This document shows positions 1 through 29,613 of a stretch of DNA of 64,000 nucleotides, in pieces. This DNA comes from a virus: the IMG/VR virus record IMGVR_UViG_3300025127_000013, positions 1 to 64,000 of that record; one strand, written 5' to 3'. Position 1 is the first letter of the stretch, and each line of letters opens with the position of its first letter. The notes beneath the pieces are model-generated. The model was not told the DNA's origin, ran no database searches, and saw only the letters and a program-made list of their open reading frames with translations. A program made the position numbers and the translations under genes.

Positions 1-560
1 CATTTGAAGCAATATTGATTGAATACTTTAGAAGAGAAGGTCAGATGGAAGGTGGTGCCTATGTTAATTTAGCAATGCAAATTGAAGACAGAGATTTGAC
101 ATCATATGAGTGGGATCTAGAAACTGATGGAGAGTATACTGAGTCTTATGAGTCCACTGCTAGCAATACTTTCTACTATGATCCTGAAGAATTTGGTGTT
201 AGTCTCGATGTGTTAAAGCAAATCACAGACTCTCGCGACTTTAGAATTGAGTTGAGAAGACAATTATTGGAAGAGCCCAGAAAAACTGAGAACACACAGT
301 ATTATCTACAAATGGATGCAAGAACTGTGGAACAGGGTGGGCAGATTAAATTTACCACTGTGTTCTCGATAAATGTTGACGAGCCTGATATTATGGCTGG
401 ACTTTTTAGAGAGCTTGTAGAGGGTGATATGGACGATGAAGACAACCTTAATGTGGTGTATCGAAGAGTGATGGCTCAAGCAGTTAAAGCAAGACAACCT
501 GCATCGATGCAAACAAATGAATCGTTAGTCAACAATTGGAAGAACTATTTAAGAACATGA
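1..560 (+). CDS. C-terminal part of an unidentified phage protein
   Basis: The reading frame is open from the window edge (first full codon at base 3) to the TGA at 558-560, so the true start lies upstream; the TTG at 15 is not a convincing start. About 185 residues are visible, acidic and without a recognised domain. The last residues (NNWKNYLRT) resemble the ENWRKYL core of the tag that opens the next genes, which may mean this protein belongs to the same head-associated set, but that is inference. The stop overlaps the next ATG (ATGA at 557-560), showing translational coupling. Function unknown. Confidence 0.75.
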   Translation, partial: FEAILIEYFRREGQMEGGAYVNLAMQIEDRDLTSYEWDLETDGEYTESYESTASNTFYYDPEEFGVSLDVLKQITDSRDFRIELRRQLLEEPRKTENTQYYLQMDARTVEQGGQIKFTTVFSINVDEPDIMAGLFRELVEGDMDDEDNLNVVYRRVMAQAVKARQPASMQTNESLVNNWKNYLRT

Positions 561-931
561 AACTCCTACTTGAAAATTGGCGAAAATATTTGACAGAAAA
601 TATGAATATCAAATCGAGTGATGATATAGAATTCTTAGTTCGTTCTATTCATATGGAAGAGGATGATTTTGTAGAAGGGGATCTGATAGATAGGATAAGG
701 CAATATCCTTATTATATTCTTAAAGATATTGAACTTGATAAAATAGAGACGGCATGGACAGATCTGGGCAAAGTTGATGATTATGCCGAAATGTATGATC
801 AAAGAGGCACAGAACCGCCTCCTGTCGTTTTAGATCACACACTATATACGATAGACGGTGCACACAGAGTAGAGGCAGCAAGAGAAGCGGGCAAAGAAAA
901 AATAAAAGCTTATGTCGGGACATTCGGATGA
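557..931 (+). CDS. Tagged small protein with ParB-like C-terminal domain
   Basis: 124 residues. The start at 557 is chosen because it overlaps the previous stop (ATGA) and places the tag MKLLLENWRKYLTE at the N-terminus, as in three neighbours. The tag ends in LTE, fitting the [LI]xE consensus of the T4 gp21 prohead protease. Residues about 85-124 (DHTLYTIDGAHRVEAAREAG) resemble the ParB/sulfiredoxin-like fold with its G-x-HR motif. In other systems this fold binds nucleotides or cuts DNA; activity here is not shown. Inferred role: a head-packaged payload protein. The gene ends in an ATGA overlap with the next. Confidence 0.75.
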   Translation: MKLLLENWRKYLTENMNIKSSDDIEFLVRSIHMEEDDFVEGDLIDRIRQYPYYILKDIELDKIETAWTDLGKVDDYAEMYDQRGTEPPPVVLDHTLYTIDGAHRVEAAREAGKEKIKAYVGTFG

Positions 932-1356
932 AACTCCTACTTGAAAACTGGCGAAAGTATGTAAACGAAGTGGTGGATGATGTATTCACGGGAAACTGTG
1001 GTATGTTTGGTATTGCCTTGGCTGAAGAAGCCCAAAGAAGGGGTATTAATGCAGCATTAGTTTTTGCACATAATGCTGATACAGATGAAGAAATGATCTA
1101 TGGAGACTATAAAATTTACCATGTAGCCTTAAAGATCGGAGACAAGTATTATGATGGCAGAGGGGAAATCCGATTAAGTGAATTAGTATCATTTATGTTC
1201 GAGGTGCCGGAAGATATGAATGTTGATGCTTTTAATCTTGCAAACCTTGACCAGATGAAAAGTGCTATTCGTCGTAATACGGCTTGGAGTGCGACCTGCA
1301 AGGATTTCAAAGAAAAGGCGAAACAATTTTTAGATGAAATGGGGTATACAAAATGA
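928..1356 (+). CDS. Tagged protein, possibly papain-like cysteine protease fold
   Basis: 142 residues opening with MKLLLENWRKYVNE. The first 33 bases differ from those of the gene at 557 at only two positions, so the tag was duplicated recently although the bodies are unrelated. After the tag comes GNCGMFGIAL (Cys at about 24) and later YHVALKIGDKYYDGRG. The order Cys, then His, then Asp with a GNC-x-A context resembles papain/NlpC-like or transglutaminase-like cysteine enzymes. This assignment is by motif only. ATGA-coupled to the upstream gene. Candidate injected or capsid-internal enzyme. Confidence 0.7.
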   Translation: MKLLLENWRKYVNEVVDDVFTGNCGMFGIALAEEAQRRGINAALVFAHNADTDEEMIYGDYKIYHVALKIGDKYYDGRGEIRLSELVSFMFEVPEDMNVDAFNLANLDQMKSAIRRNTAWSATCKDFKEKAKQFLDEMGYTK

Positions 1357-1392
1357 ATCGATTGTTTCAATTTAGGAGGACTATTTAAAATT

Positions 1393-1839
1393 ATGAAACT
1401 TTTATTTGAAAGCTGGCGAAAATTTATTATCGAAGCAAAAGCTTTAATTTGTCCCCCTGCAACTCAAGATTTAGAATTAAATACAAAGAATAGAGATGCC
1501 GCAATCAAAGCGGAATATATTCAATATGGCCCTTTGAATGTCGATGAGCCCGGGAATTTTTGGACTGAAATTGCTGAATATTGGGACACTACTGAAGAAG
1601 CCGCTAAAGCATCAACATGTGGGGTTTGTACTGCATTTGATATCTCTCCTCGCATGAAAGAATGTATGCCCGGTGAAACATCAGATAAAGATGGCGAATT
1701 AGGATATTGTTGGATGCATCATTTTAAGTGCCATTCTGCAAGATCATGCAGAACATGGGCTAAGGGCGGCCCAATAAAAGAAGATGATACCTCCGCCGAC
1801 TGGCAAGAAAGGTCTAATATTGATAATGAAAATGAGTAA
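1393..1839 (+). CDS. Tagged cysteine-rich protein of unknown function
   Basis: 148 residues starting MKLLFESWRKFIIE, the shared tag, with a [LIV]xE end (IIE). A strong Shine-Dalgarno-like AGGAGG lies at 1375-1380, about 12 bases before the ATG. The body has clustered cysteines and histidines: STCGVCTAFD, ECMPG, GYCWMHHFKCH, SCRTWAKGGPI. This looks like a metal-binding module (zinc or iron-sulfur); I recall similar Cys/His layouts in marine phage proteins of unknown role but cannot name a family. A 36-bp gap separates it from the preceding gene. Candidate cargo protein. Confidence 0.7.
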   Translation: MKLLFESWRKFIIEAKALICPPATQDLELNTKNRDAAIKAEYIQYGPLNVDEPGNFWTEIAEYWDTTEEAAKASTCGVCTAFDISPRMKECMPGETSDKDGELGYCWMHHFKCHSARSCRTWAKGGPIKEDDTSADWQERSNIDNENE

Positions 1840-1987
1840 AACACAATTAAAACAAGTTATTAAAGAAGAAATTGAGAAATTACTTGAAGAAGAGAGTGGT
1901 TTTTTATCCAATATATATAAGCTTTGTTCCGAAGGTGAAAAATGTGCACCTGAATCTAAAAAGACAAAATGGTGGAAAGGTAAATAA
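1826..1987 (+). CDS. Small protein with amphipathic N-terminal helix
   Basis: 53 residues, start placed at ATG 1826 (1832 is equally possible), overlapping the end of the previous gene. The N-terminus MKMSKTQLKQVIKEEIEKLL is a strongly amphipathic helix of a type recurrent at the N-termini of marine phage head proteins. It may be a second class of capsid-targeting or scaffold-binding peptide (inference). The C-terminal part has two cysteines and ends in a basic KKTKWWKGK. It lies between two genes carrying the MKLL tag. Function unknown. Confidence 0.55.
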   Translation: MKMSKTQLKQVIKEEIEKLLEEESGFLSNIYKLCSEGEKCAPESKKTKWWKGK

Positions 1988-1988
1988 A

Positions 1989-2417
1989 ATGAAATTATTA
2001 TTTGAAAATTGGCGAAAGTTTGTGGCTGAGGAAGAAGAAATAGATGAGGGAGTCGGTACTGCGGCTCTGGGTGCAGCACTAGCTCTTGGCGGAGCAGGAA
2101 AAGCTGATGTTCAACAATATGATACAGATACTTCATCTGGAGATCAAACAACTCAGCAAGTTGATGCTGAAAAACAAGCCGAAGGTGAATTACAGAAAAA
2201 CGAAGACGGTTCTTACTCTATGGAATATTCAAATCCTGTAACTAAAGGAATGTCAATGACTAATTCACTACTTAAATCATTTCTTGGATTACAAGGAAAA
2301 ACAGACATGATGAACAAATTATTTGATGCCGGTCTTGATGCTCAGTCATTTAATTATAGTATTACTGGCACTAACATGGGAACCAAATCAATTACCCTTA
2401 AGGCTACCCCTAAATGA
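1989..2417 (+). CDS. Tagged protein with glycine/alanine-rich segment
   Basis: 142 residues from ATG 1989, one base after the preceding stop. A longer in-frame extension upstream to 1872 is rejected because it would hide the tag MKLLFENWRKFVAE. The tag ends in VAE, a [LIV]xE-type site. It is followed by an acidic stretch, then a small-residue segment (AALGAALALGGAG, about 23-35) that could be a short membrane-active helix, then a Gln/Asp-rich linker and a 60-residue C-terminal domain with no family I recognise. Likely packaged or head-associated. Confidence 0.7.
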   Translation: MKLLFENWRKFVAEEEEIDEGVGTAALGAALALGGAGKADVQQYDTDTSSGDQTTQQVDAEKQAEGELQKNEDGSYSMEYSNPVTKGMSMTNSLLKSFLGLQGKTDMMNKLFDAGLDAQSFNYSITGTNMGTKSITLKATPK

Positions 2418-2965
2418 ATAACTTACTTGAAAATATAACAGAAGAAGAACTCAAAGAAATTATTGCTGACGAATTAAGCGAAACTCTTGTTCTTGTAGAA
2501 AAATGTTGGAAGGGTTATGAAAAGAAAGGCATGAAAAAGATGTTTGGTAAGATGTATCCAAACTGTGTCAAAAAGAAAAAAAGTAAGAAACGAAAAAAGA
2601 AACGTAAAAACGAAAGTGTTGATTTATATGAAGCAGATCCGAAAAAAGGCACAGGCAAAAAACCTAAAGGTTCTGGTCGAAGGTTATACACAGATGAAAA
2701 CCCTAGTGATACAGTATCTGTAAAGTTTTCAACAGTGCAAGATATTAAGGACACTCTTTCTAAATCATCTTTCAAATCAAAGTCACATAAAAGACAGTCT
2801 CAAATTATTAATTTAATACATCAGAGAGCAAGAGCAGCTTATCAAAATGCCAAAGACCCAAAAGTCAAAGCAAGACTTAAAAAATCTTTTGATTATGCTA
2901 AAGAAAGAAAAGAAGCTTCAAAAAGAAAAACACAATCGATGAACAAGGCTAAAAAAGATGAGTAA
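2414..2965 (+). CDS. Highly basic protein, DUF5872-like
   Basis: 183 residues, coupled to the previous gene by a 4-bp overlap. The N-terminus MNNLLENITEEELKEIIADE echoes the LLEN of the neighbouring tags. A CWKGYEKKGMKKMFGKMYPNC segment (cut here by description: Cys-Trp-Lys-Gly to Asn-Cys, about residues 31-51) and a KPKGSGRRLYTDENPSDTV segment (about 82-100) match, from memory, a domain often seen in marine phages and catalogued as DUF5872. Runs of lysine and arginine (54-66 and 145-183) suggest nucleic-acid binding. Plausibly a DNA-associated internal head protein; this role is inferred. Confidence 0.65.
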   Translation: MNNLLENITEEELKEIIADELSETLVLVEKCWKGYEKKGMKKMFGKMYPNCVKKKKSKKRKKKRKNESVDLYEADPKKGTGKKPKGSGRRLYTDENPSDTVSVKFSTVQDIKDTLSKSSFKSKSHKRQSQIINLIHQRARAAYQNAKDPKVKARLKKSFDYAKERKEASKRKTQSMNKAKKDE

Positions 2966-4795: not shown

Positions 4796-5635
4796 ATGGA
4801 TGATACACTTAAAAGTCTAATAAAGCAGTTTATGCCTTTTGCTCAAAAACAGATTGGTTTTGAAAATCCGCCTAGATTATTTTTAAGAAGAGACGGACAG
4901 AATGCAAAAAACCCGCTGGGTAAGACTGCATTCTACGACCCTAACAACATGTCTGTGACACTTTACATAACAGGCCGGCATCCAAAAGATATTCTTAGGT
5001 CACTTGGTCATGAGCTAGTTCATCATAAACAAAATTGTGATGGCAAATTCAGCGATTCAGATGATATGGGCCCCGGTTATGCTCAGAAAGATCCTCACTT
5101 AAGACAAATGGAACAAGAAGCAAATCGTGACGGAAGCATGTGTTTAAGGGATTTTGAAGATATGTTAAAGAAAGAAAACACTATTTATTACGAACATCTA
5201 CAAAAAGGAGATAAAAAGATGTCTACAAAAGATTGGAAAAACGAAGAGATTCGTAGCCTTTTAGCTGAAGCTTGGGGCTTTAAATTTAATACATTACAGG
5301 AATTTGAGGAATTCAATGGACAAGGTGAATTACAAGCAGAGAGTGAAGAAGAAGTTACCGAAGAAGCTGTTGAAGAAAGTACTGAGGAAACTGTTGAAGA
5401 ATCCGCCGATGAATCAGTAGAAGAATTGGCTAGAGCAACTGGTGGTCATGGTGCCCACAGAGACAGAATGAAGGATCGTAAAGATGCTGCTAAAGCTCGT
5501 CGTAAAGATGATGATGAAGAAAAAGTTGAAGAAGCTGATCACGGTGAAGACGATGACAAGGTTGAAGAGTCTGATACTGCTAATGAATTGACCGAAGCAA
5601 TTGCTGCGGTTCTTCGCAAGCATTTACGAGGCTAA
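4796..5635 (+). CDS. Zinc metallopeptidase-like protein with long acidic tail
   Basis: 279 residues. Residues about 1-140 form a small zincin: GHELVHHKQN gives HExxH at residues 72-76, with further candidate ligands in the following acidic/His region (DPHLRQMEQEANRDG). After about 141 a second, different region begins: MSTKDWKNEEIRSLLAEAWGF, then a Glu/Val repeat region (EEEVTEEAVEESTEETVEES) and alternating Lys/Arg- and Asp/Glu-rich stretches to the end. The tail looks like a separate head-type protein joined to the peptidase. Substrate unknown; processing of head or scaffold proteins is one option. Confidence 0.7.
   Translation: MDDTLKSLIKQFMPFAQKQIGFENPPRLFLRRDGQNAKNPLGKTAFYDPNNMSVTLYITGRHPKDILRSLGHELVHHKQNCDGKFSDSDDMGPGYAQKDPHLRQMEQEANRDGSMCLRDFEDMLKKENTIYYEHLQKGDKKMSTKDWKNEEIRSLLAEAWGFKFNTLQEFEEFNGQGELQAESEEEVTEEAVEESTEETVEESADESVEELARATGGHGAHRDRMKDRKDAAKARRKDDDEEKVEEADHGEDDDKVEESDTANELTEAIAAVLRKHLRG
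5204..5221 (+). promoter_or_regulatory. Internal ribosome-binding site and in-frame start
   Basis: AAAGGAG at 5204-5210 lies 8 bases before an in-frame ATG at 5219-5221 inside the peptidase gene. This is a better ribosome site than many true starts in the window. Use of it would make a separate 138-residue acidic protein (5219-5635) beginning MSTKDWKNEEIRSLLAE, whose LAE end recalls the [LIV]xE of the neighbouring tags. Whether both products are made is not known. Confidence 0.55.
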
Positions 5636-5730: not shown

Positions 5731-5979
5731 ATGTCATTAGACAAAGCATGGAGAGATTTCTTAACCGAGAGTGTTGATGAAAAAAACATCTATACATATA
5801 TTCAAGGTCTCCAAGAAATAATTTCCAATCTTAAACCTAGAACTGTAACAGAAAAAAGAAGGTTGCAGCTAGCAAAACAACATCTTAGAGAAGTTAGGAG
5901 ATTTGCCCGTAAATTGGATAATCGCATTGGTATTCTTGAGGAAAAATTAACAATTTTAGAAGAGTCTACTGGAGATTAA
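5731..5979 (+). CDS. Small helical protein with variant head tag
   Basis: 82 residues with AGAGGAA ribosome site at 5719-5725. It opens MSLDKAWRDFLTE, a variant of the MKLL...W(R)xxLTE tag with the same terminal LTE. The body is one long charged helix or two-helix coiled coil (residues 25-78, rich in Lys, Arg, Glu and Leu). It could be an internal or scaffold-core protein (inference). The 95 bp before it (5636-5730) is AT-rich and shows nothing else convincing. Confidence 0.65.
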   Translation: MSLDKAWRDFLTESVDEKNIYTYIQGLQEIISNLKPRTVTEKRRLQLAKQHLREVRRFARKLDNRIGILEEKLTILEESTGD

Positions 5980-5982: not shown

Positions 5983-7950
5983 ATGGCGAAAGCTAATACT
6001 CACCTTACTCATCTTGAAGAATTGGTTCTAACACAGGGAGCGGATGGCTATAAAATGGCCAGAGGCTTCCTTTTAGAGCTTTTAAAGTCTTTGAAGGGTA
6101 ATACCAGCACTAAGATTCAAACATCCGTCAAATGGGACGGTGCACCTGCTATATTTGCTGGAATTAATCCAGAGAATGGCAAGTTCTTTGTTGGTACTAA
6201 ATCTATCTTTAATAAAATACCAAAGATTAATTATACGAAAGATGATATAGTAAAAAACCATGGTCATGCACCCGGGCTTGTTGATAAACTCACCAAAGCT
6301 TTGGAATATTTGCCGGCATTAAACATTAAAAACATTCTGCAGGGTGATTTCATGTTCGATGATGAAATGATCAGAAGGGCTGAAATTGATGGTGTACCTC
6401 ACTATAAATTCAAGCCAAACACAATTGTTTATGCTGTGCCTGTTGATTCAAAACTCGGTCAAGAAATAGAACAAGCTAAGTTTGGTATTGTTTTTCACAC
6501 AACATATGAAAGTTTGGACAGTGGTGCTAGTTTTGGAGCAGATGTATCATCGCTTCGTAGAGCCCCCGGGGTTTGGTTTGACGATGCTTTCTTCACTGAT
6601 GATACTGGTGTTGTAACTTTAACAGATGATGAAGAAACACAAATTGTTAGTTTGGTTAAACAAGCAGATACTGTTAATGGACAAATAGATTATGACAATT
6701 TACCATTTTCTTTATTAAATATTTATATTAATAGTGAGATTAAAGCAGGCAGCTTTCTTGATGACCCAGAAAAATCGTTTGAGGGATTCAATAATTGGTA
6801 TTCACAAAGGGTTCAAAAAAAGATAGATAAACTTAAAAGTGATAGAGGTAAAGAGTCAGCGAGTCAAAATGCCCAACAAATGTTACAATCTTTTGCCGAC
6901 AAGAAAAATGATATAGTCAACATTTTTAAGGTTAGTCGCTTGCTATTTGAGGCAAAAAACATTTTTATTCAAAAATATAACAATGCTGTTTATAACACCA
7001 AACACTTCGTTGACAACGGTTCAGGTGATCTAGTTGCTAGTAATCCAGAAGGCTATGTAGCAGTCGATCACAAAGGTAACGGAATTAAGTTTGTTGATCG
7101 TCTAGAATTTAGTAGAGCCAACTTCGCTGTTGATAAAGGTGGCAAATTTACTGGTGATATCAATGAACAAGAAGAAGACGAATTTGACATCGATAATGAA
7201 GACGATGACCCAGTAGTAGATACAGATTATCCAAAGACAGTAGCTGTAGTACCCGGAGCTTTTAAGCCGCCGCATCTTGGACATTTGGATATGGTACGGA
7301 AATATTCTGATATCGCAGATGAAGTTAAAGTTTTAATATCTAAACCAACTGTTAAAGCTAGAACATTACCTAATGGTCGAGAAGTAACAGCCAAGGATTC
7401 ACTCAAAATCTGGAATGTATTAGCATCAAATCTACCAAATGTAGATATAGAAATTTCATCACATGCATCTCCTATTAATGCTGCATATGAATATGTGGGT
7501 GATGAAGGACCGCTGAATGTTGGTGATAAAGTTATTCTCGGCTGTAGTAACAAAGGTGGTGATTGTAAACGATGGACTGGAGCAGAAAAATACATCAAAA
7601 AAGGTGTTGAATTGGTACCAGTGACCGGAGTTGAACCAACTGTCCGAACTAGCGGAGAAGCATTTAGTGCTACTGATTTTCGTAGTGCACTTGGAAATCC
7701 AGAAAATAAAGCAGAAATAGCTGAATTTGTCGGTGATGAAAATGTGGAATCTGTTTTAAATATACTTGGACTGTCGAATATGGGCGAGATGTCATCAATG
7801 TCAGGAGGTGCAGTAGCAGGATACTCAGCCCCTTTGGGATATGGGTCGGTTAAAAGACCCAAAAAGAAAAAGAAAACAAATGAATATATGGATTTAAGTT
7901 TGATTGATGAAGTTATCGAACTAATTATGAAAAGAGGCATTACCCAATGA
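5983..7950 (+). CDS. Fusion of ligase-like and NMN-adenylyltransferase-like domains
   Basis: 655 residues. The N-terminal half carries covalent nucleotidyltransferase (DNA/RNA ligase) motifs: SVKWDGAPA with K50-x-DG as motif I, LQGDFMF as a motif III-like site, PEGYV with E356 as motif IV, and GIKFVDR with K369 as motif V. The C-terminal half (from about 415) is a HxGH nucleotidylyltransferase: GAFKPPHLGHL (425-435) and a SATDFR motif near 560, as in NadM-type NMN adenylyltransferases. A Lys-rich linker ends the protein. Likely nucleic-acid end repair plus NAD-related chemistry; the joint role is inferred. Overlaps the next ATG by 4 bp. Confidence 0.75.
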   Translation: MAKANTHLTHLEELVLTQGADGYKMARGFLLELLKSLKGNTSTKIQTSVKWDGAPAIFAGINPENGKFFVGTKSIFNKIPKINYTKDDIVKNHGHAPGLVDKLTKALEYLPALNIKNILQGDFMFDDEMIRRAEIDGVPHYKFKPNTIVYAVPVDSKLGQEIEQAKFGIVFHTTYESLDSGASFGADVSSLRRAPGVWFDDAFFTDDTGVVTLTDDEETQIVSLVKQADTVNGQIDYDNLPFSLLNIYINSEIKAGSFLDDPEKSFEGFNNWYSQRVQKKIDKLKSDRGKESASQNAQQMLQSFADKKNDIVNIFKVSRLLFEAKNIFIQKYNNAVYNTKHFVDNGSGDLVASNPEGYVAVDHKGNGIKFVDRLEFSRANFAVDKGGKFTGDINEQEEDEFDIDNEDDDPVVDTDYPKTVAVVPGAFKPPHLGHLDMVRKYSDIADEVKVLISKPTVKARTLPNGREVTAKDSLKIWNVLASNLPNVDIEISSHASPINAAYEYVGDEGPLNVGDKVILGCSNKGGDCKRWTGAEKYIKKGVELVPVTGVEPTVRTSGEAFSATDFRSALGNPENKAEIAEFVGDENVESVLNILGLSNMGEMSSMSGGAVAGYSAPLGYGSVKRPKKKKKTNEYMDLSLIDEVIELIMKRGITQ

Positions 7951-11546: not shown

Positions 11547-12083
11547 ATGGGACATTCTTCAGTAAATACCAATATTAAAACCCTTAAACTCGACATCTCT
11601 TACAGGCCAATTGAAATAGTTGATGCGGTGGATGCATTAGTATTGTGTCTAATTGGTAAAGCACAAGCAATTGAAAATTACAAAAAAGAAATAAGTTCCG
11701 TCAGCGATAGTTTTAAGCTGCCTGCCGTTATTGTTTTAAAAAGATTTGTTAAATTTCATTTTAAAATTGTCTCTGCACACCGTCGAGAAATTATTTTAAG
11801 AGACAATAATCAATGTCAATATTGTAGCATTGAACTACCAAGCGATAAACTCACTCTTGATCATATTGTACCAAAAAGTAAGGGTGGTAAAAACACTTGG
11901 GATAATTTAGTTGCTGCATGTAAGAAATGCAATCAAAAAAAAGGAAATAGGACACCTGAGCAAGCTAATATGAAATTAATTTGTAAACCCGTAAAACCAA
12001 AATATAATATTCTTCGTTCTGTAGGTAAAAATCAAGTATCAGAATTGTGGAAAAACTATCTCTGGGAATCTAATGAGAAATAA
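11547..12083 (+). CDS. HNH endonuclease
   Basis: 178 residues. The HNH/zinc module is clear: RREIILRDNNQCQYC, then LTLDHIVPKSKGG (His of the first strand), DNLVAACKKCNQKKG (Asn and the second Cys pair), giving a CxxC...CxxC zinc site around the ββα-metal active site at about residues 78-135. It cuts DNA and may act in packaging, restriction-like functions or homing; there is no visible intron. The N-terminal 70 residues are unassigned. A TATAAT at 11527-11532 precedes the start. Confidence 0.88.
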   Translation: MGHSSVNTNIKTLKLDISYRPIEIVDAVDALVLCLIGKAQAIENYKKEISSVSDSFKLPAVIVLKRFVKFHFKIVSAHRREIILRDNNQCQYCSIELPSDKLTLDHIVPKSKGGKNTWDNLVAACKKCNQKKGNRTPEQANMKLICKPVKPKYNILRSVGKNQVSELWKNYLWESNEK

Positions 12084-16684: not shown

Positions 16685-17968
16685 ATGAAAAAAACTAAAA
16701 TTCTTACCATATCTGACCACCCTCTTTCACCTTCAGGGGTAGGAACACAAACAAGATATTTTATTGAAGCACTTTTAAAAACTGGTAGATATCAGTTTGT
16801 TTGTCTTGGTGGGGCAATTAAGCACAACGACTACACTCCTGTAAATGTTGATCCCCATGGGGAAGATTGGAGAATTATTCCAGTCGATACCTATGGAACA
16901 CCTGATATTATTCGGTCTATTTTGCAAAATGAACGACCGGATGTCTTGTGGTTTATGACGGATCCGCGGTTTTACGAGTGGTTGTGGGAAATGGACAATG
17001 AAATTAGATCACTTGTGCCAATGGTTTATTATCATGTGTGGGATAACTTCCCAGCACCTGAGTTTAACGGTAAGTGGTATCGCTCAACCGACGAAATTGT
17101 AGCAATTTCAAAAGTGACATATGGTTGTGTTAAAGAAGTAGTACCTGAAGCTTCTCTAAATTATATCCCACATGCAGTTCCAACACAATTTTTTCACCCT
17201 GCCACAAGTAACGATGAAAAAAGCAAAGCTTCAACTTTAAGACATAATATAATTAATACATCCACCGAGTTCAATAATCCAAAAAAGAAGATATTTTTCT
17301 GGAACAGTAGAAATGCAAGAAGAAAGCTAAGTGGTACACTTATTTGGTGGTTTAAAGAATTACTAGATGAAATCGGACATGATAAAGCCTCGCTACTCAT
17401 GCATACAGATGCTAGAGATCAGCATGGCCAAGACTTGCCTCATATTATGGAGAGATTGGGCTTAACCGATGGTCAAGTGTTGCTATCAACGAATAAAGTT
17501 AGTCCAGAAGAGTTGGCACACATGTATCGTGCAGCGGACTACACTATTGGCATTAGCGATGCTGAAGGTTTTGGTTTGTCAACTCTTGAATCATTGACAT
17601 GCGGAACTCCAATTATTGCAAACATGACAGGTGGCCTCCAAGAACAGGTAACTGATGGTACAAACTGGTTTGGTTGGGGCATTGAGCCTGTAAGTAAAAC
17701 TGTTATTGGCTCTTTACAAGTGCCATATATCTATGAAGATAGAATCTCACAAAAAGATTTTAATGCAACAATGAAAAAAGCAATAAAATTAAGCAAACCA
17801 AAATACCAAAAGCTTTCAAAGATGTGCTTGCAGCATGTTAAGGATAATTATAGCTTTGAAAAATTTGAACAATCTTGGATTAATTTAATCGATGAAATTG
17901 TAGAGAAACATGGTTCTTGGGAAACTAGAAAAAATTATGATCGTTGGACACTATTGGAGGTGGCATAA
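16685..17968 (+). CDS. Family-4-type glycosyltransferase (GT-B)
   Basis: 427 residues, GT-B fold. N-terminal half opens KTKILTISDHPLSPSGVGTQ, as in GT4 enzymes; the C-terminal half has FFWNSRNARRK, YRAADYTIGISDAEGFGLS and STLESLTCGTPIIA, the E-x7-E nucleotide-sugar motif region. It transfers a sugar from an NDP-sugar; donor and acceptor are not deducible. First gene of the island, close to the next gene (1-bp overlap, TAATG at 17966). Confidence 0.85.
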   Translation: MKKTKILTISDHPLSPSGVGTQTRYFIEALLKTGRYQFVCLGGAIKHNDYTPVNVDPHGEDWRIIPVDTYGTPDIIRSILQNERPDVLWFMTDPRFYEWLWEMDNEIRSLVPMVYYHVWDNFPAPEFNGKWYRSTDEIVAISKVTYGCVKEVVPEASLNYIPHAVPTQFFHPATSNDEKSKASTLRHNIINTSTEFNNPKKKIFFWNSRNARRKLSGTLIWWFKELLDEIGHDKASLLMHTDARDQHGQDLPHIMERLGLTDGQVLLSTNKVSPEELAHMYRAADYTIGISDAEGFGLSTLESLTCGTPIIANMTGGLQEQVTDGTNWFGWGIEPVSKTVIGSLQVPYIYEDRISQKDFNATMKKAIKLSKPKYQKLSKMCLQHVKDNYSFEKFEQSWINLIDEIVEKHGSWETRKNYDRWTLLEVA

Positions 17969-19221
17969 TGCTTCAGAAAATAATTTTAACAGCACCAGTG
18001 CTGACTCGCTCAGGTTATGGCGAACAATCAAGATTTGCCTTAAGAGCACTCAGGTCACGACCTGATTTATTTGATATTTATATTCATCCTTTAGAATGGG
18101 GTAAAACTTCTTGGCTTAGTGAAGATAATGAGGAAAGAAAATGGATTGATCAAACAATCCAAAAAACAATTGATTTTCTTCAAGTAAATAACAGTGCAGA
18201 TAATAACTTGTTTGATGTATCACTACAGGTCACTATTCCAAATGAGTGGCAAGATATTGCTAAGCATAATGTTGGTTATACTGCTGGTATTGAAACAACA
18301 AAGGTGGCACACGAGTGGTTACTAAAAGGTAACGAAATGGACAGTATTATTGTTGTTTCTGATCATTCTAAGAATGTGTATAGAAATACAGTCTATGATG
18401 CACACAATCAACAAACAGGCGAAGATATTACATTATCATTGAGCACTCAAGTTTCTACAGTCAATTACCCTGTAAAAACATATGATAATTTAGAAGCTCT
18501 TGAGCTTAACTTAAAACATGATTTTAATTTTGTTACCGTTGCACAGATGGGCCCAAGAAAAAACATTGATAATACCATTAATTGGTTTTTACAAGAGTTT
18601 CACGATGATGAAGTTGGATTAGTGGTAAAGACAAATGTTGCTAAAAATTGTCAACTTGATAAAGAAATAGTCCACGGCTCGTTGATCAGGCTTATTAGGG
18701 CTCATGATGCTACTAATGAAAACAGAAAATGTAAACTTTATTTGCTTCATGGTGACTTAACAGATCAAGAAATGCACGAACTATATTTGAACCCAAAAAT
18801 TAAAGCGACCCTTTGTTTAACACACGGTGAAGGATTTGGTTTACCAATGTTTGAATCAGCTTACATGGGTATTCCAGTTGTTGCTACGGATTGGTCCGGT
18901 CAGCTAGATTTTCTCTGTGATGCAGAAAAAAGAACAAAATTTTACAATGTTGGCTTTGATTTACAGCCAGTTCCTGATGAAATATTATGGGATGGTGTGA
19001 TTGTAAAAGGTTCCATGTGGGCAGTGCCAAGAGAAAACTCTGCAAAGTATAACATGAGGCTATGCTATGATGAAGTTACCGATGGAACTAACACTGCTTG
19101 CGAATATTCAAAAGAACTTTGTGAGAGGTTTTCAGAAGACAAGATGTATGCAGCTTTTATTGAAGCTATGAATTTGCCAATTGTACAAACTCCAGAATCA
19201 GAATTGGTAGAATTTGAATGA
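17968..19221 (+). CDS. Family-4-type glycosyltransferase (GT-B)
   Basis: 417 residues from ATG 17968 (overlapping the previous stop); the ATG at 17944 is upstream within the previous gene. Pattern APVLTRSGYGEQSRFALRAL, MGPRKNIDNTINWF and THGEGFGLPMFESAYMGIP are typical of GT4 enzymes with the conserved Glu motif. Similar in plan to the preceding gene but not a close copy. Cytosolic, sugar specificity unknown. Followed by an ATGA overlap. Confidence 0.82.
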   Translation: MLQKIILTAPVLTRSGYGEQSRFALRALRSRPDLFDIYIHPLEWGKTSWLSEDNEERKWIDQTIQKTIDFLQVNNSADNNLFDVSLQVTIPNEWQDIAKHNVGYTAGIETTKVAHEWLLKGNEMDSIIVVSDHSKNVYRNTVYDAHNQQTGEDITLSLSTQVSTVNYPVKTYDNLEALELNLKHDFNFVTVAQMGPRKNIDNTINWFLQEFHDDEVGLVVKTNVAKNCQLDKEIVHGSLIRLIRAHDATNENRKCKLYLLHGDLTDQEMHELYLNPKIKATLCLTHGEGFGLPMFESAYMGIPVVATDWSGQLDFLCDAEKRTKFYNVGFDLQPVPDEILWDGVIVKGSMWAVPRENSAKYNMRLCYDEVTDGTNTACEYSKELCERFSEDKMYAAFIEAMNLPIVQTPESELVEFE

Positions 19222-20831
19222 GTAAGTTAGTTTATGTCAGCGATTTTTTTGTTGAGCACATCGCCGGCGGTGCTGAGATAAACGATTCTATATTATTAGA
19301 GAATCTATCAAAAGATATAAAAGTAGTCAAGTTTTTATCTCGTGAATTTACTAGCAAACATGTAAATTTATATCTTAAAAGTGGCTTTAAGTTTCTAATA
19401 TCAAATTTTGCTACTCTTGATGTTAGTACAATGCAGGAGTTAGTAAATAATCCCAAGTGTTATTCTATAATCGAACACGACCACAAGTATTTAAAACATA
19501 GAAATCCATCAATATATAAAGACATGCTTGCACCACCGCAGGATATTATAAATAGAATATTGTATGCTAATGCCGCTTGTGTATTCGCACAGTCTAATAT
19601 ACACAAACAAGTTATTCAAAGAAACTTAAAAATTTCTAATGTTATAAATCTTGGTATGAGTTTGTGGTCAGATGAACAATTATCAATAATTGAAGAAAAC
19701 TACAGCGATGTAAAAAAACCGGGCTGTTCTATAGTGAACAGTCAAAATCCAACTAAAAATACAGCAGGAACAATTCAGTTCTGTGAAACCAATAATATTG
19801 AATATAATTTAATTGGTTCTCCCTCTTACGAGGAGTTTATAAAACAACTGTCTGAATATGAAAGATATGTTTACATGCCAATTGTTCTTGAAACCTTTAA
19901 TAGAGTTATAATTGAAGCTAGAATGTTGGGATGCAAAATCTCATCTACTAATTTAAATGGATGCTTTTCTGAAGATTGGTTTTCAAAGTACAAGGGTAAA
20001 GAATTAATTGAGTATGTCCGACAGCAGCGACAAAGAGTTGTTAATGAAGTTTCTAGCGGTATATTTGACGATTCAGATACCAAAGAAAAGTCAGACATTA
20101 CAGTTATTTTAAACGGGTACAGAAGACCATATAATCTTAAAATGCAAGTTGATGCATTAAGAAGCCAAACAAATCCTCCAAAGCAAATTTGGCTGTGGAT
20201 TAATGATCATGAAGACAATCATGGTTTTGATTTTGAATCTATTGGAGTAGATAGAATATTTCACAATGACTATAATTGGAAGTTCTATGGCCGCTTTGCT
20301 GCAGCACTTTTAGCAGACACCGAGTATATTGCAATCTATGATGATGATACAGTGCCCGGCAAAAGGTGGCATGAAAATTGTTTAAAAACTATGGGTACCC
20401 ACGAGGGTATTCTTGGTTCAGCCGGCATCATACTCAATGGTTCACGATATGTGCAACACGACAGGTGCGGCTGGCCAACACAAAATTCAACCACAACTGA
20501 AGTTGATTTAGTTGGCCATGCTTGGTTTTTTAAACGAGAGTGGTTACGATATCTCTGGCAAGAAAAACCTGTCACTTGGGATAATGGAGAAGATATCCAG
20601 TTTGCTTTTATGGCAAAAATCCATGGGGGTATACCAACATATTGTCCGCCACATCCGCCCGAAGATATTGATTTGCATGGTTCTATACTTGGGAATGAAT
20701 TAGGTATAGACAATAAAGCAACATCAACCAATTCTGCTGTTTCGCATCAACAATTTTTCTCCGAAAGAGATATGTGTGTGCAAACAGGACTACAAAAAGG
20801 CTGGAAAACAGTCAATAATATAACATTATGA
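19218..20831 (+). CDS. Two-domain glycosyltransferase (GT-B-like plus GT-A-like)
   Basis: 537 residues. Residues 1-275 resemble a reduced GT4-like domain (VVKFLSREFTSK, FAQSNIHKQVIQRN, ETFNRVIIEARMLGC). From about 290 a GT2-like GT-A domain begins: SDITVILNGYRRPYNL, YIAIYDDDTVPG with the DDD metal motif at about 375, and WDNGEDIQFAF. So two transferases may act successively on one glycan. ATGA-coupled at both ends. Confidence 0.75.
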   Translation: MSKLVYVSDFFVEHIAGGAEINDSILLENLSKDIKVVKFLSREFTSKHVNLYLKSGFKFLISNFATLDVSTMQELVNNPKCYSIIEHDHKYLKHRNPSIYKDMLAPPQDIINRILYANAACVFAQSNIHKQVIQRNLKISNVINLGMSLWSDEQLSIIEENYSDVKKPGCSIVNSQNPTKNTAGTIQFCETNNIEYNLIGSPSYEEFIKQLSEYERYVYMPIVLETFNRVIIEARMLGCKISSTNLNGCFSEDWFSKYKGKELIEYVRQQRQRVVNEVSSGIFDDSDTKEKSDITVILNGYRRPYNLKMQVDALRSQTNPPKQIWLWINDHEDNHGFDFESIGVDRIFHNDYNWKFYGRFAAALLADTEYIAIYDDDTVPGKRWHENCLKTMGTHEGILGSAGIILNGSRYVQHDRCGWPTQNSTTTEVDLVGHAWFFKREWLRYLWQEKPVTWDNGEDIQFAFMAKIHGGIPTYCPPHPPEDIDLHGSILGNELGIDNKATSTNSAVSHQQFFSERDMCVQTGLQKGWKTVNNITL

Positions 20832-21814
20832 TACTGATTAGTTTTGGAACTCGACCTGAGTTTATTAAAATAAAACCTCTTATCGAGGCATTTAAAGATA
20901 GGATACCTTTCAAGTTACTTTTTACCGGTCAACATGTTGATTTGTTGTCCGATGTAGAGGGTGACATTCACAAGCTGACGATTGAAGATGGTTCAAATAG
21001 GCTTGATTCGATTGTTTCCTCGATGATGAACAACGATACTATTTTTGAAGGTGTGGAGGCAGTGTTGGTTCAGGGTGATACAACATCAGTTTTTGCTGTT
21101 GCATTGGCTGCATTTCATAGAAGAATAAAAATTATACACCTTGAGGCTGGATTAAGAACATTCAACAAATATCATCCATACCCTGAAGAGTTTAATCGTC
21201 GTGCTGTCTCTGTCATGGCTGATATCCATCTATCACCAACAGAACTTTGCACTGAAAACCTTAATAAAGAAAGGGTCGATGGAAAGATTTTTACGGTTGG
21301 CAATACTGTGCTGGATAATTTGGTAGATATACAACCCGAATACACAAACAAAGTTGTCATTACAATGCACCGAAGAGAAAACCATCACATTATACCAGAA
21401 TGGTTTGCTGCATTTGATAGACTTGCACTTGAAAATCCACAGTATGAATTTATTATTCCTTTGCACCCTAATCCGAATGTTCAAAAGCACAAAGACTTGT
21501 TAAAGCATGTCAAAGTTGTTGAGCCTATGCAATATGCAGAGTTTATTAAGTTACTATCACAAGCTCGTTTAGTTATTACAGATAGTGGCGGACTGCAGGA
21601 AGAATCGTCGTTCTTTAAGAAAAAGTGTATAGTTTGTAGGCAGGCTACAGAAAGGGTTGAAGGTATGGGAACATTTGCATTTATGTCATCACCAGATAGA
21701 GTAGAGAACGATTTTTATTCTATGATTGATGACTATATTCCCGATGATACATGTCCTTATGGAGATGGACACAGTGCAGAAAGAATCACAAATATTCTTT
21801 TAGAGGAATTATGA
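20828..21814 (+). CDS. wecB: UDP-N-acetylglucosamine 2-epimerase
   Basis: 328 residues; converts UDP-GlcNAc to UDP-ManNAc. It opens ISFGTRPEFIKIKPLIEAF, and has LFTGQHVDLL, VLVQGDTTSVFAVALAAF, HLEAGLRT, a VGNTVLDN motif and ITDSGGLQEESSFF, all conserved in WecB. Slightly shorter than the usual 375. It supplies a ManNAc-type donor to the island. Overlaps both neighbours by 4 bp. Confidence 0.92.
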   Translation: MILISFGTRPEFIKIKPLIEAFKDRIPFKLLFTGQHVDLLSDVEGDIHKLTIEDGSNRLDSIVSSMMNNDTIFEGVEAVLVQGDTTSVFAVALAAFHRRIKIIHLEAGLRTFNKYHPYPEEFNRRAVSVMADIHLSPTELCTENLNKERVDGKIFTVGNTVLDNLVDIQPEYTNKVVITMHRRENHHIIPEWFAAFDRLALENPQYEFIIPLHPNPNVQKHKDLLKHVKVVEPMQYAEFIKLLSQARLVITDSGGLQEESSFFKKKCIVCRQATERVEGMGTFAFMSSPDRVENDFYSMIDDYIPDDTCPYGDGHSAERITNILLEEL

Positions 21815-22614
21815 AAGACTTTACCAATGCCTTCAATACTCTGCTGCACAAGTTAGAAAATAAAGAAAATTTTGCTTTTACTCGGTTTTCTGATGGTGAA
21901 CTTTTTATCTTGCAAAATAAAACAGTTATATTAGCTGAGGACCATTATGTAACCGGTGATGTTAAGGGGTCTAATGTTTACACTAAAGAAGAGCAAAAGG
22001 AATTCTTACCTGAACAACATGGTTTTTTTCGTGATAAGCTAATGGAATGTTATCTTCACAATCAAGATAATTTTTACAAAGGTATATGCACTGGAACTGA
22101 TCCGCATGTTGGAAATGAAAATTTTAAATGGATGATAGAAAAGCACGGTGGTGATCATGATAACTTAACATTTTCTAATCTTTTAATAAATGCAAATTAT
22201 AAAAGATTCATTGAAGAAATGGTGCCCATGTTGGTTGACAGAAATGTAATTTATGTTGCAAATGAGAATGCAAATATACTAAAACTACCGTTTGATGTAG
22301 AAAAGCATTTCACTGTTGGTTCAAATTGTATGATAAATGATTATAACTTAGCTGAAGAAATAAAAAAATATATTGACGATAACAACCTGAAAGATTATAT
22401 TGTTCTATGTTCTGCTGCTAGTTTAAGCAATGTCGTGACTTACGAGTGTTTTAAAGATAATCCAAATAATACATTTCTTGATGTTGGAAGCTGTTTAAAT
22501 CCATTGCTAGATCTAGAAGGGTGGAAATACACCAGAGGTTACCTAACCAGCTATTGGCTTAATTCTAATAGCCCATTTGGTACACAGGTAGATGTATGGC
22601 AGAGTACAAATTAG
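21811..22614 (+). CDS. GT-D-type glycosyltransferase candidate (DUF1792-like)
   Basis: 267 residues from ATG 21811 (ATGA overlap). FAFTRFSDGELFIL near residue 23 matches the RF-x-DGE motif that defines the GT-D fold (DUF1792, SP_1767-type). The later part with YIVLCSAASLSNVV and FLDVGSCLNPL fits that family's nucleotide-sugar-binding region. Sugar specificity unknown. Ends overlapping the acetyltransferase gene by 19 bp. Confidence 0.65.
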   Translation: MKDFTNAFNTLLHKLENKENFAFTRFSDGELFILQNKTVILAEDHYVTGDVKGSNVYTKEEQKEFLPEQHGFFRDKLMECYLHNQDNFYKGICTGTDPHVGNENFKWMIEKHGGDHDNLTFSNLLINANYKRFIEEMVPMLVDRNVIYVANENANILKLPFDVEKHFTVGSNCMINDYNLAEEIKKYIDDNNLKDYIVLCSAASLSNVVTYECFKDNPNNTFLDVGSCLNPLLDLEGWKYTRGYLTSYWLNSNSPFGTQVDVWQSTN

Positions 22615-22997
22615 TAAATAACAACCCTTCTTACTGGGAATTTATTCGTGAGCTAAGGACCATGGAAGGTGTTCGAGAAGGATTTATTTCACAAACTGAA
22701 ATTACTCCTATTGAGCAAGCTACTTATATGCTAAAATATAATTCTAACTATTGGATATGTTTGGATGACAAAACTCCTGCAGGTTATGTTGGAGTAATAG
22801 ACGATGATATTAGGGTAGCAACTCACCCAGACTATCAAGGCAAAGGTGTTGGAACATTTATGATTAATGAAATTATGAAACTAATACCAACAGCGATAGC
22901 AAGAGTTAAATTAAACAATGAAGCCAGTGTAAAACTATTTGAAAGATGTGGCTTTAAAAAGAAATACTATATTTTGGAAAGAGATAATGAGACATAA
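22596..22997 (+). CDS. GNAT-family N-acetyltransferase
   Basis: 133 residues. AGYVGVIDDDIRVATHPDYQ then GKGVGTFMINEIM (Q/R-x-x-G-x-G/A acetyl-CoA loop) and AIARVKLNNEASVKLFERCGF form the GNAT fold. It transfers an acetyl or acyl group from CoA to an amine; beside an aminotransferase gene, an amino-sugar is the likely substrate (inference). Overlaps the next gene by 11 bp. Confidence 0.82.
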   Translation: MAEYKLVNNNPSYWEFIRELRTMEGVREGFISQTEITPIEQATYMLKYNSNYWICLDDKTPAGYVGVIDDDIRVATHPDYQGKGVGTFMINEIMKLIPTAIARVKLNNEASVKLFERCGFKKKYYILERDNET

Positions 22998-23601
22998 CCC
23001 ATATAAAATTGTAAAAATGTTTGAAGAGACCGTAGCCGACTATTGCGGCTCTAAGTATGCAGTATCGACTGACAATTGCACTGATGCTCTTCTTTTATGT
23101 TGTGAGTACTTGGGGGTCAAGGAAGTTGTAATACCCGCTAGAACATACCTGTCGGTCCCGCAATCTATCATGCATGCCGGCGGCACTGTAAAGTTTAAAG
23201 ACTACAGGTGGAAAGGCATATATCAACTTGAGCCATATCCAATTTATGATGCAGCTAAAAGATTTACAAGTGATATGTATATTCCCGACTCTTTTATGTG
23301 TTTATCGTTCCATATCAAAAAGCATTTGAAGATTGGAAAGGGCGGTATGATTCTTACCGACGATGCTGATGCTGCAGCATGGTTTAGAAAAGGTCGCTAT
23401 GAAGGCCGCGGCGAAGTTATGTATCATGAAGACAACATACAGATTAACGGATGGAATGCATACATGACTCCTGAGCAAGCAGCCCGTGGTTTGATGTTAA
23501 TGCAAAACTACCCAGATCATATGGAAGACTTGCCCGAAGAACCATTCTACAGAGATTTAAGAGAATTTGACTTGTTTAAGGATGTAGAGGTGATAGAATG
23601 A
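22987..23601 (+). CDS. Short DegT/DnrJ/EryC1/StrS-type sugar aminotransferase
   Basis: 204 residues from ATG 22987, about half of the usual 370-400. Retained: YCGSKYAVSTDNCTDALLL, PARTYLSVPQSIMHAGG, YDAAKRF (Asp89 for the PLP ring) and SFHIKKHLKIGKGG (PLP lysine, K111 or K112). The C-terminal dimerising and substrate-recognition half is replaced by a short end. Stop codon and upstream/downstream frames give no sign of frameshift. Possibly a genuine small variant, or inactive. Confidence 0.7.
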   Translation: MRHNPYKIVKMFEETVADYCGSKYAVSTDNCTDALLLCCEYLGVKEVVIPARTYLSVPQSIMHAGGTVKFKDYRWKGIYQLEPYPIYDAAKRFTSDMYIPDSFMCLSFHIKKHLKIGKGGMILTDDADAAAWFRKGRYEGRGEVMYHEDNIQINGWNAYMTPEQAARGLMLMQNYPDHMEDLPEEPFYRDLREFDLFKDVEVIE

Positions 23602-24428
23602 AGATCGCACTGTGCTTACATGGCTACTTTGCTAATGCAGAGGGGTATGAAGAATCTATTGAGGCTCACAAATACTTAAAAAGAAAAGTACTTGATGGCA
23701 ATGATGTAGATGTTTTTATACACAGTTGGGATCTTGAAAACGAAAAAAAAGTATTGTCATTGTACAATCCAAAAAAGTATAATTTTGAAAAGCAATTAGA
23801 TTTTAAAGAAGAATTAGAAAAAATTAATATTGACAATGAGGAATATAAAAGTTCGTATGGCAATACCATATTTAGAACATTGAGTTTTTTGTATTCAAGA
23901 ATGATGGCCGTGAAAATTAAAAGTGATTATGAAGAAGAAAAAAAATTCAAATATGATTGTGTAATATTAGCAAGATTTGATATTTCAAGAAGGGGTCTTA
24001 AACATCATCAAACATTTTATGTAACAAAAATGAACTTTAATCCAAATTTTGACATGCAATATGTATACTCTGCTTTCTGGCCTCAATTAAATCATGGATA
24101 TGCCGACCACTGGTTCTACTCATGTTCTGAAAACATTGACACTGTTGCAAATTTATATTATGATGTCTTTGAACATTATCAATCAAATAGCGATTATGAA
24201 AAAGCTGTATTAAACGGATGGCCTGAAAGCTGTAAATATCATCAAGATACCAATGAATTTTTAAAACCTGAAAAATACAGATCTAAAGAACTTAAATGTT
24301 GGACTAAAGATAGACTTATAGATAACCATAAGCTTTATAAATGGCATTTTATGAAAACCGGTTTGCATCAAAAGTCTAAATTTGTTGATATTACAACTGA
24401 TACTGATAACCCAAGGCTTATGAACTAA
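23598..24428 (+). CDS. Putative glycosyltransferase-like protein
   Basis: 276 residues, ATGA-coupled. It opens KIALCLHGYFANAEG and contains DVFIHSWDLENEKKVLSLYNPK and CVILARFDISRRG, a pattern I associate with LPS/capsule proteins in surface-polysaccharide loci; the final RFDIS could be an acidic metal-binding site. No confident family number. Likely cytosolic. Confidence 0.5.
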   Translation: MKIALCLHGYFANAEGYEESIEAHKYLKRKVLDGNDVDVFIHSWDLENEKKVLSLYNPKKYNFEKQLDFKEELEKINIDNEEYKSSYGNTIFRTLSFLYSRMMAVKIKSDYEEEKKFKYDCVILARFDISRRGLKHHQTFYVTKMNFNPNFDMQYVYSAFWPQLNHGYADHWFYSCSENIDTVANLYYDVFEHYQSNSDYEKAVLNGWPESCKYHQDTNEFLKPEKYRSKELKCWTKDRLIDNHKLYKWHFMKTGLHQKSKFVDITTDTDNPRLMN

Positions 24429-24431
24429 TCT

Positions 24432-25157
24432 ATGAACAAAGAAACCGCTATTATTATGTACAGTCACAGCAGTTACTCTGATGTATGGGGTATGTTTATG
24501 GGACAAATTGATAAGTATTTTTCTAATGATGTAAAAAAATATGCATTTGTTGATGATGATAAGGGTCTTATTGACAATAATTGGAACATAGTTTTGTATG
24601 ATGATTCTATGTCGTATGATGTTAGATTTAGCACATGTTTAGAAAGTGTAAAAGAGCAGTATTGTATCTTTCATCATGAAGATATGCCCTTAATAACTAA
24701 GCCTAATATTGAAGAATTGGAACGGTGCCACGGAATATTAAAAAACGAACCAGAGTTAGATTATATAAAGCTGATTAAGGGTGGAGAAATTAGAGATATA
24801 CCGTATAAAGAATACAACAACTTATATGATATACCACACAATTCTGCATGCATATTTGCCGTACAGCCGACCATATGGAAAACTGATAAATTAAAAATTG
24901 TTTACAACAATACAAAAACAAATCACATTAGAGAATTTGAACCCAAAAGTCAAACTACTTGTGTTGAAAATTCGATACATGGAGCTTATTATTTCAATTC
25001 TGAAGTTGATTTAAAAAGAGGTGGCACTCATTATGATTCATCAATTTATCCATATGTTGCCACGGCCATAGTAAAGGGAAGATGGAATTTAGCTGAGTAT
25101 TATGTTGAAATATCAAACTTGGCAAGAGAATATAAAGTTAATCTTGGAGATAGATAA
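24432..25157 (+). CDS. Putative glycosyltransferase-like protein
   Basis: 241 residues, 3 bp after the previous gene. KETAIIMYSHSSYSDVWG at the N-terminus and YCIFHHEDMPLI with an acidic EDM triad near residue 80 resemble small GT-A-like proteins of viral glycan clusters. C-terminal SIHGAYYFNSEVD and RGGTHYDS may be acceptor-site loops. Function is only inferred from context; TAATG overlap with the phosphatase gene. Confidence 0.45.
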   Translation: MNKETAIIMYSHSSYSDVWGMFMGQIDKYFSNDVKKYAFVDDDKGLIDNNWNIVLYDDSMSYDVRFSTCLESVKEQYCIFHHEDMPLITKPNIEELERCHGILKNEPELDYIKLIKGGEIRDIPYKEYNNLYDIPHNSACIFAVQPTIWKTDKLKIVYNNTKTNHIREFEPKSQTTCVENSIHGAYYFNSEVDLKRGGTHYDSSIYPYVATAIVKGRWNLAEYYVEISNLAREYKVNLGDR

Positions 25158-25681
25158 TGATTAAATTAGTGATATTAGATGTCGATGGTGTAATGACAGA
25201 TGGTCGAAAATACTATGATCACACTGGCATGCCCGTTGCAAAGACATACTGTGACAAAGATTTTACCGCTATTAAAAGACTCCGCGGAGCAGGAGTAAAG
25301 GTTTGTATTCTCTCCGGAGATGATTTTGTCAACAAAGCGATGGCCCATAATAGAAATATAGATTTTTATTCTGCTAGAGGTAAAGATAAGGCTGCTTTTG
25401 TACCTCGTTTTATTTACAATTATGATGTTGATGCGAAAGACATGGCATACATCGGCGATGACTTATTTGATAAAAGTGTAATGGAAGCTGTTGGTCATGC
25501 ATTCTGTCCAGCAGATGCCTGTGCAGACATTATTGAGTTGTGCGGCCCCTCAAATACATTGCCACAAAATGGTGGCTGCAATGTGGTTGCTGGCATGGTC
25601 GATACGATGTTAAAGAGAGGCTTGATACCAGATGCCACAATGAAACAAATTGAAGAGTTAGATAAAAACGAGAGGTTTTAG
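25157..25681 (+). CDS. KdsC-like HAD phosphatase
   Basis: 174 residues, typical for the C0-type HAD subfamily (KdsC 3-deoxy-manno-octulosonate-8-phosphatase and relatives). LVILDVDGVMTDGR (nucleophile D8, acid D10), VCILSGDDF, the GKDKAAFV lysine and YIGDDLFDKSVM are all present. It removes phosphate from a sugar-phosphate intermediate; Kdo-8-P, a heptose bisphosphate or an acylneuraminate 9-phosphate are options. The gene stop overlaps the kinase GTG. Confidence 0.85.
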   Translation: MIKLVILDVDGVMTDGRKYYDHTGMPVAKTYCDKDFTAIKRLRGAGVKVCILSGDDFVNKAMAHNRNIDFYSARGKDKAAFVPRFIYNYDVDAKDMAYIGDDLFDKSVMEAVGHAFCPADACADIIELCGPSNTLPQNGGCNVVAGMVDTMLKRGLIPDATMKQIEELDKNERF

Positions 25682-26562: not shown

Positions 26563-26563
26563 A

Positions 26564-27724: not shown

Positions 27725-27725
27725 A

Positions 27726-28373
27726 ATGAAAGATATAGAATTACATAAGCGATTATTAAAACTGCTATATGAGCACAACGAGGAACATGTTGGTAGTTGT
27801 TTTTCTTGCATTGATATCATAGATTCTATTTTTGCAACCAAAAGCGAAGATGACATTTTCATTTTATCTAATGGTCATGCAGCATATGCTTTATATTCTG
27901 TTCTAGAAAAATACTACCCTCACATCGATGCTGATGCCCTTGTAGAAAAGCATGGCGGTCACCCTAACCGAGATGAGGAAAACCACATCTACTGTTCAAC
28001 TGGTAGCCTTGGTATGGGGATTATGATGGGTGTTGGTAGAGCCTTGGCTAAACCAGATAGAACAGTGCATGTTATGATTAGCGACGGCGAGTCCACGGAA
28101 GGTTCAGTTTGGGAAGCTCTTAGATACATTGAGGAAAAGAATGTAGACAACATTGAAGTTTATGTTAATGCTAACGGATATGCTTGTTATGACGAAATGG
28201 ATGTTGATTATTTAGAAAGAAGATGTAAGGCATTTTTACCAAGAATACATTTTCATCGCACTGAACAAGAAACATTTCCTTTCTCGTTTTTATGGGGTCT
28301 TGATGCCCACTATATCAAGATTAATGATGAGCAATATCAAGAAGCCTTGGAGGTCTTAGAAAATGAGTGTTAG
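27726..28373 (+). CDS. Split transketolase, thiamine-pyrophosphate (N-terminal) subunit
   Basis: 215 residues, comparable with known short transketolase N-subunits. LSNGHAAYALYSVLEKYY, GSLGMGIMMGVGRALA and the Mg/TPP motif SDGESTEGSVWEALRYIEEK with N at about 150 (VYVNANGYA) identify the PP domain. It transfers two-carbon units between sugars and could make sedoheptulose 7-P. Overlaps the second subunit by 11 bp. Confidence 0.85.
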   Translation: MKDIELHKRLLKLLYEHNEEHVGSCFSCIDIIDSIFATKSEDDIFILSNGHAAYALYSVLEKYYPHIDADALVEKHGGHPNRDEENHIYCSTGSLGMGIMMGVGRALAKPDRTVHVMISDGESTEGSVWEALRYIEEKNVDNIEVYVNANGYACYDEMDVDYLERRCKAFLPRIHFHRTEQETFPFSFLWGLDAHYIKINDEQYQEALEVLENEC

Positions 28374-28842: not shown

Positions 28843-28844
28843 TT

Positions 28845-29612: not shown

Positions 29613-29613
29613 C

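Follow-up and report, generated by a model that had tools for sequence, protein, structure and literature searches.

A peptide tag shared by unrelated proteins of uncultured T4-like viruses resembles the T4 capsid-targeting signal

Introduction

Why would neighboring viral genes with otherwise unrelated products all begin with the same short peptide? This question is raised by the start of a far-T4-like IMG/VR virus record of 130,761 bp (130.8 kb), of which bases 1–64,000 form the window; we read the remainder as well. It was originally predicted that the peptide directs proteins to the capsid, as does the N-terminal capsid-targeting sequence MKTYQEFIAE of the T4 internal proteins, a system that includes the prohead protease gp21 (PMC9026906; Mullaney and Black, 1996). 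Here, we find that the peptide (the W-tag) is best read as a capsid-targeting signal of the T4 type, of a new sequence class and on predicted head cargo that is unusually numerous and diverse. Judging from their sequences, many uncultured and mostly marine T4-like viruses appear to put one label on dozens of unrelated enzymes for loading into the head.

Results and discussion

Unrelated proteins share a tag that is conserved at the protein level

The genes at 557, 928, 1393, and 1989 open with MKLLLENWRKYLTE, MKLLLENWRKYVNE, MKLLFESWRKFIIE, and MKLLFENWRKFVAE, respectively, a common 14-residue tag, and blastp places the bodies behind it in four separate families, just as had been claimed. All four genes lie on the plus strand. 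The first (557..928; tag at 557–598, predicted cut after E14) has a weakly ParB-like body, the second (928..1356; tag at 928–969) a body with conserved C24, H65, and D76 that is papain-like by motif only, the third (1393..1839; tag at 1393–1434) is Cys-rich, and the fourth (1989..2417; tag at 1989–2030) has a Gly/Ala-rich N-terminal region. The labels first given to two of these bodies stand only as weak ones (ParB-like, PHROG E=4e-4; papain-like, Pfam YunG-like E=0.003, below the cut-off). Phage-record relatives of the 1393 protein are annotated as 'high potential iron-sulfur protein'; most of its homologues carry the tag, and three have another leader instead. The variant tag reported at 5731 (gene 5731..5979, plus strand) is short, reads MSLDKAWRDFLTE, and is kept in at least 14 related contigs. 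We also found a copy absent from the original prediction: the open reading frame that stops at 560, the closing part of an approximately 800-residue protein, carries the tag core at its C-terminus, ESLVNNWKNYLRT followed by the stop codon (519..557, plus strand). In this copy, W, [FY], and [LI] are present and the cleavage E is absent.

The tag DNA at 557 and 928 had been described as almost identical, which holds for approximately the first 29 bases; over the whole tag these copies agree at 36 of 42 bases, and other pairs at 31–33 of 42. Near-identity of this kind would suit an element acting in DNA or RNA, such as a translation start or a recombination hot spot, but this explanation is almost certainly wrong, given that the other copies encode the same residues by different codons and that the motif also occurs at C-termini. 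Because the drift between copies is largely synonymous, the tag is conserved at the level of the protein.

We scanned the whole viral collection with a degenerate pattern for DNA that encodes M-K-x-x-x-E-[NS]-W-R-[KR]-[FY], which gave at least 120 matches against an estimated chance expectation of approximately 0.01. At least 160 unique W-tagged proteins were found, with at least 87 kinds of body: among the matches listed, the 156 proteins of at least 60 residues form 87 families by blastp. They are unrelated and mostly accessory proteins, and Pfam recognizes among their bodies NUDIX, P-loop kinase, protein kinase, M23 peptidase, DUF192, zeta toxin, exonuclease, GNAT, C5 methylase, HAD/5'-nucleotidase, and EF-hand domains. 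Seven large genomes have 4–12 W-tagged genes each among the matches listed, often arrayed. A short N-terminal leader on non-homologous proteins is also what T4 has; unlike there, W-tagged proteins number up to 12 per genome (again among the matches listed), many are enzymatic, and the bodies average –4.9 charges per 100 residues, making them acidic where the internal proteins of T4 range from neutral to basic. At the T-even ip locus, a hot spot for injected proteins that counter restriction (PMC12373910), unrelated small genes likewise cluster with the leader alone in common, but W-tag cargo has far broader predicted activities. A tblastn search of named phages with a 22-residue tag query gave chance matches only, by a method too insensitive to prove absence. 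A relaxed W-tag DNA pattern had no match in four phages that carry other leaders (Mel-JY01, immuto, Slickus01, and LR756508).

The tag ends in a predicted cleavage site and has the spacing of the T4 signal

The search pattern includes W8 and [FY]11, and residues 12–14 lie outside it. Among the matches listed, 126 of 151 tags (83%) nevertheless have [LIVMF]xE with its E at residue 14, compared with 2% of positions elsewhere in the same proteins; the claim that the tags end in [LIV]xE is well founded, and this end is strongly selected. In nine more of the 151 tags the motif ends at residue 15, several of them with one inserted residue and the motif kept (WRKYLLTEA, WRKYMLKEA, WRKYLIKEE), and 12 of the 151 are without any [LIVMF]xE ending at residues 13–17. 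The full core W-x-x-[FY]-[LIV]-x-E is found in 132 of the 160 tagged proteins among the matches listed, and W8 and [FY]11 persist also where the search pattern played no part, in homologues and in shorter variants.

Suppressor work on T4 IPIII (MKTYQEFIAE) assigned targeting to residues 4 and 7 and processing to residues 8 and 10, and Asp at residue 10 blocks processing only, with targeting retained (PMC9026906). The tag residues W8, [FY]11, [LIV]12, and E14 (i, i+3, i+4, and i+6) have exactly the spacing of IPIII Y4, F7, I8, and E10: the first two of these positions are aromatic, the third is [LI], and the last is E. T4 gp23 contains a stretch of the same form as the tag core, AFGSFLTE/A, in which we take E65 to be the cleavage site (slash). 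The N-termini of gp21 (LLIETW in T4) and of gp23 may also mimic the tag, which is suggestive. The peptide had been called analogous to that of T4 but different. It does differ in sequence (MKLLxENWRKYLxE, 14 residues, with W for Y), yet sharing the core spacing, it is more like T4 than this description allowed. Leaders removed by a prohead protease and thought to target the prohead are also described for giant phages such as SPN3US; the head propeptides of SPN3US are mostly much longer, well over 100 residues (examples of 124–127; PMC5694885), against 14 for the W-tag.

The predicted targeting and cleavage halves come apart

The W/[FY] half and the [LIVM]xE half separate in nature, as the T4 mutant map of targeting versus cleavage predicts. 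In the approximately 800-residue family of the open reading frame ending at 560, a C-terminal W[KR]x[FY][LI] is present in homologues down to approximately 40% identity and varies slightly in those furthest removed. The E is found in none of 15 C-terminal copies, versus 140 of 160 tagged N-termini among the matches listed. Other members of this family have the tag at the N-terminus (L365 and G012) or at both ends (L132 and L034), and further double-ended proteins occur in G010 (MNHNVIMENWRKY...VIMENWKKFIS, then the stop codon) and G001. A structure model of the family (822 residues; pLDDT 72.7) had no credible PDB match; in it, a linker of low confidence leads to a helix, likewise of low confidence, made up of the last 12 residues. 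The HNH gene at 11547–12083 in the window likewise has a C-terminus resembling the tag core (ELWKNYLWESNEK; WKNYL). This ending is conserved only loosely among homologues, may be peculiar to its gene family, and was left out of the count of tag copies.

The reverse separation is seen in fused cargo. In one protein (L014:4016–5149) a single tag precedes three parts in a row: a ParB-like domain, a homologue of the 928 protein, and a NUDIX domain (NUDIX E=6e-13; ParB-like and papain-like matches weak); in the window, the ParB-like gene and the 928 gene are separate and each is tagged. At the body junctions of fused cargo, [LIVM]xE is kept and the W half is gone in four out of six cases (p about 2e-6), a test on six cases in which BLAST start points favor matching residues. 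The four junctions are INE/A, LLE/N, MNE/N, and VSE/A. In L014, TSKEINE/AVEDVYTGNCG aligns with YVNE/VVDDVFTGNCG, and NVSE/A precedes the NUDIX domain; the other two are ALLE/N in L081 and FMNE/N in L099. From these junctions, which retain [LIVM]xE but not the W half, we infer that the prohead protease splits fused cargo. A structure model of the L014 fusion was poor (mean pLDDT 49), matched NUDIX-type folds only, and was not used. Among phages and plasmids, polyvalent proteins likewise unite several effector domains of different kinds in a single chain (PMC5512222), as L014:4016–5149 joins, by homology, ParB-like, putative papain-like, and NUDIX domains. Unlike them, most W-tagged proteins look single-domain, each with its own tag, and the splitting of W-tag cargo would be by gp21-type cleavage rather than by an in-cis peptidase.

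These patterns bear on two other explanations. The tag might dock its proteins on some other machinery of the phage, be it the clamp, polymerase, baseplate, or tail, with [LIV]xE only part of a helix and the proteins acting in the infected cell. Short conserved terminal peptides do serve generally as docking motifs, and a position at either the N- or the C-terminus suits that role. We nevertheless consider it unlikely: an E that is kept at junctions without the docking half and lost from C-terminal copies fits a cleavage site, the spacing is that of the T4 capsid-targeting determinants, and the genome has a gp21-type protease (see below). Alternatively, the tag could target the head and remain uncut, with E14 as a recognition residue, just as T4 protein in which Asp replaces the corresponding E is targeted and not processed (PMC9026906) and the C-terminal copies are without the site. 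This is very unlikely, since E14 is conserved far beyond what targeting in T4 needs, insertions move [LI]xE as a unit, and the fused-cargo junctions retain a site of the [LI]xE type.

Head genes of the T4 type accompany the tag

The absence of a gp21-like protease from the genome had been named as evidence against capsid targeting; this objection does not hold, because a gp21-type prohead protease gene (Peptidase_S77, PF03420; Pfam E=3.9e-31) sits in the same genome at 88588–89193, outside the window. Also outside the window are a terminase (genome position 83294), a T4-type gp20 portal (Portal_T4, E=6e-76), a scaffold candidate (97331–98569), and the Gp23 capsid protein (98603; E=2.1e-72); the S77 protease, gp20, and gp23 are shared with T4. 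The best-matching records of the capsid protein are those of the uncultured 484-kb phage LR756508, followed among named isolates by Flavobacterium phage immuto and Microcystis phage Mel-JY01. More generally, PF03420 was found in 13 out of 13 tag contigs of at least 119 kb compared with 3 out of 9 random contigs of at least 100 kb, a small control (p=0.001); with tag contigs of at least 100 kb (14 out of 17) the association was weaker (p=0.03). Many shorter tag-bearing contigs are without the protease, which is expected of fragments and is not proof.

Together, the gp21-type protease, the selected [LIV]xE, the unrelated and mostly accessory bodies, and the T4 core spacing support the capsid-targeting interpretation. 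We propose that the tag is very probably a lineage-specific propeptide of the T4 capsid-targeting type, carried by a large set of packaged effectors and cut by the gp21-type protease. The first half of the tag, amphipathic with W8 and [FY]11, would dock the protein on the internal scaffold of the prohead, and [LIV]12-x-E14 would be cut by the phage's gp21-type protease after prohead completion. The freed bodies may then remain in the head with the DNA and be injected with it into the host as early effectors. Counting against this interpretation are the acidity of the bodies, the 12 tags that end in no [LIVMF]xE, and the weaker protease association among contigs of at least 100 kb.

A second leader class and leaders in other phage lineages

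We compared all N-termini in the genome without bias towards the W-tag, requiring unrelated bodies, and obtained exactly two clusters: the four W-tag proteins and four proteins beginning MKITKxQLKxIIKE (the K-tag). The same script run on fetched parts of T4 returned only ipII/ipIII with MKTYQEFIAE, and it therefore detects a known capsid-targeting sequence where one is present; leaders in both phages emerge from one unbiased search. Within the W-tag cluster lies a small gene with the K-tag leader MKMSKTQLKQVIKEE (1826..1987, plus strand), and a gene at 2414..2965 (plus strand) has a K-tag-like leader, its homologues beginning MSVTEENLKQIVMEEL. In the remainder of the genome, MKITKxQLKxIIKEE occurs at 79596, 80286, and 82851 (and, by eye, at 74340 and 89732), on unrelated and mostly short proteins. 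A viral-contig scan gave 175 unique K-tag examples (132 body families of 161), often with a second LxE at residues 20–22, and PF03420 was found in 10 out of 13 K-tag contigs.

The VYHGT-type body of one locus (L075) recurs in other phages, cultured ones included, behind different leaders: MKIEQLYESILEE (Alishewanella Slickus01), MQKLQDLLFE (LR756508), MKKFNEFANELAE (Vibrio K566), MIKLKSLLQE (Mel-JY01), and MNLNE (Salicola SCTP-2). All five end in [LIM]xE directly before the body; the homologue in Salmonella phage Sen-NF has no leader. By motif only, the body may be ADP-ribosyltransferase-like, and a Pfam search of it matched no family. In the cultured Slickus01 (OQ508957; L428, 2955–9554), eight consecutive genes of four body families have the common leader MKIDxLYESLLEE; five encode paralogous VYHxT proteins and one an ART-PolyVal domain (E=4.4e-11), an ADP-ribosyltransferase domain that belongs to polyvalent proteins. 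Both Slickus01 and LR756508 have PF03420. That one homologous body has different leaders in different lineages hints that a leader may by itself be enough to package a foreign protein. Four genes of immuto (NC_055915; loci L196, L200, and L201) encode two pairs of unrelated proteins with the N-termini MENFDLKKFLVEN and MKKQILSEQFKRMQxLAGIITE, which are possibly further leaders. A search of an open-access library gave no paper mentioning the W-tag, the K-tag, or the other leaders.

The peptides WRKYLNE, LKQIIKE, YESLLEE, LQDLLFE, and YQEFIAE all fit hydrophobic-x-x-hydrophobic-[LIV]-x-E. We lean, by a modest degree, towards a general code in which each phage lineage with a gp21-type protease has its own address peptide of this form, usable at either protein end, and in which effectors, polyproteins split in the head among them, are loaded and injected in large interchangeable sets. 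If the capsid-targeting interpretation is true, any leader-bearing protein of an uncultured T4-like phage could be read as head cargo from its sequence, dozens of hypothetical genes per lineage would become predicted injected effectors, and these would be a large hunting ground for anti-defense proteins. The C-terminal, double-ended, and polyprotein forms, which set the W-tag apart from the T4 signal, would broaden known head targeting, and the separable targeting and cleavage halves would provide a direct, testable rule.

Other genes of the window

PADLOC matches were few and weak. The protein encoded at 4796–5635 contains HELVH, a zinc-peptidase-like motif, and its tail is acidic and of low complexity; that at 5983–7950 fuses DUF6267 (Pfam E=1e-95) with a cytidylyltransferase-like domain; a gene of similar size in the Mel-JY01 record, near the terminase, is annotated as cytidylyltransferase-like. 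By eye, an apparent cluster for surface glycan synthesis spans approximately 15 kb at 16685–32348, with glycosyltransferase, nucleotide-sugar, and sugar-kinase-like genes.
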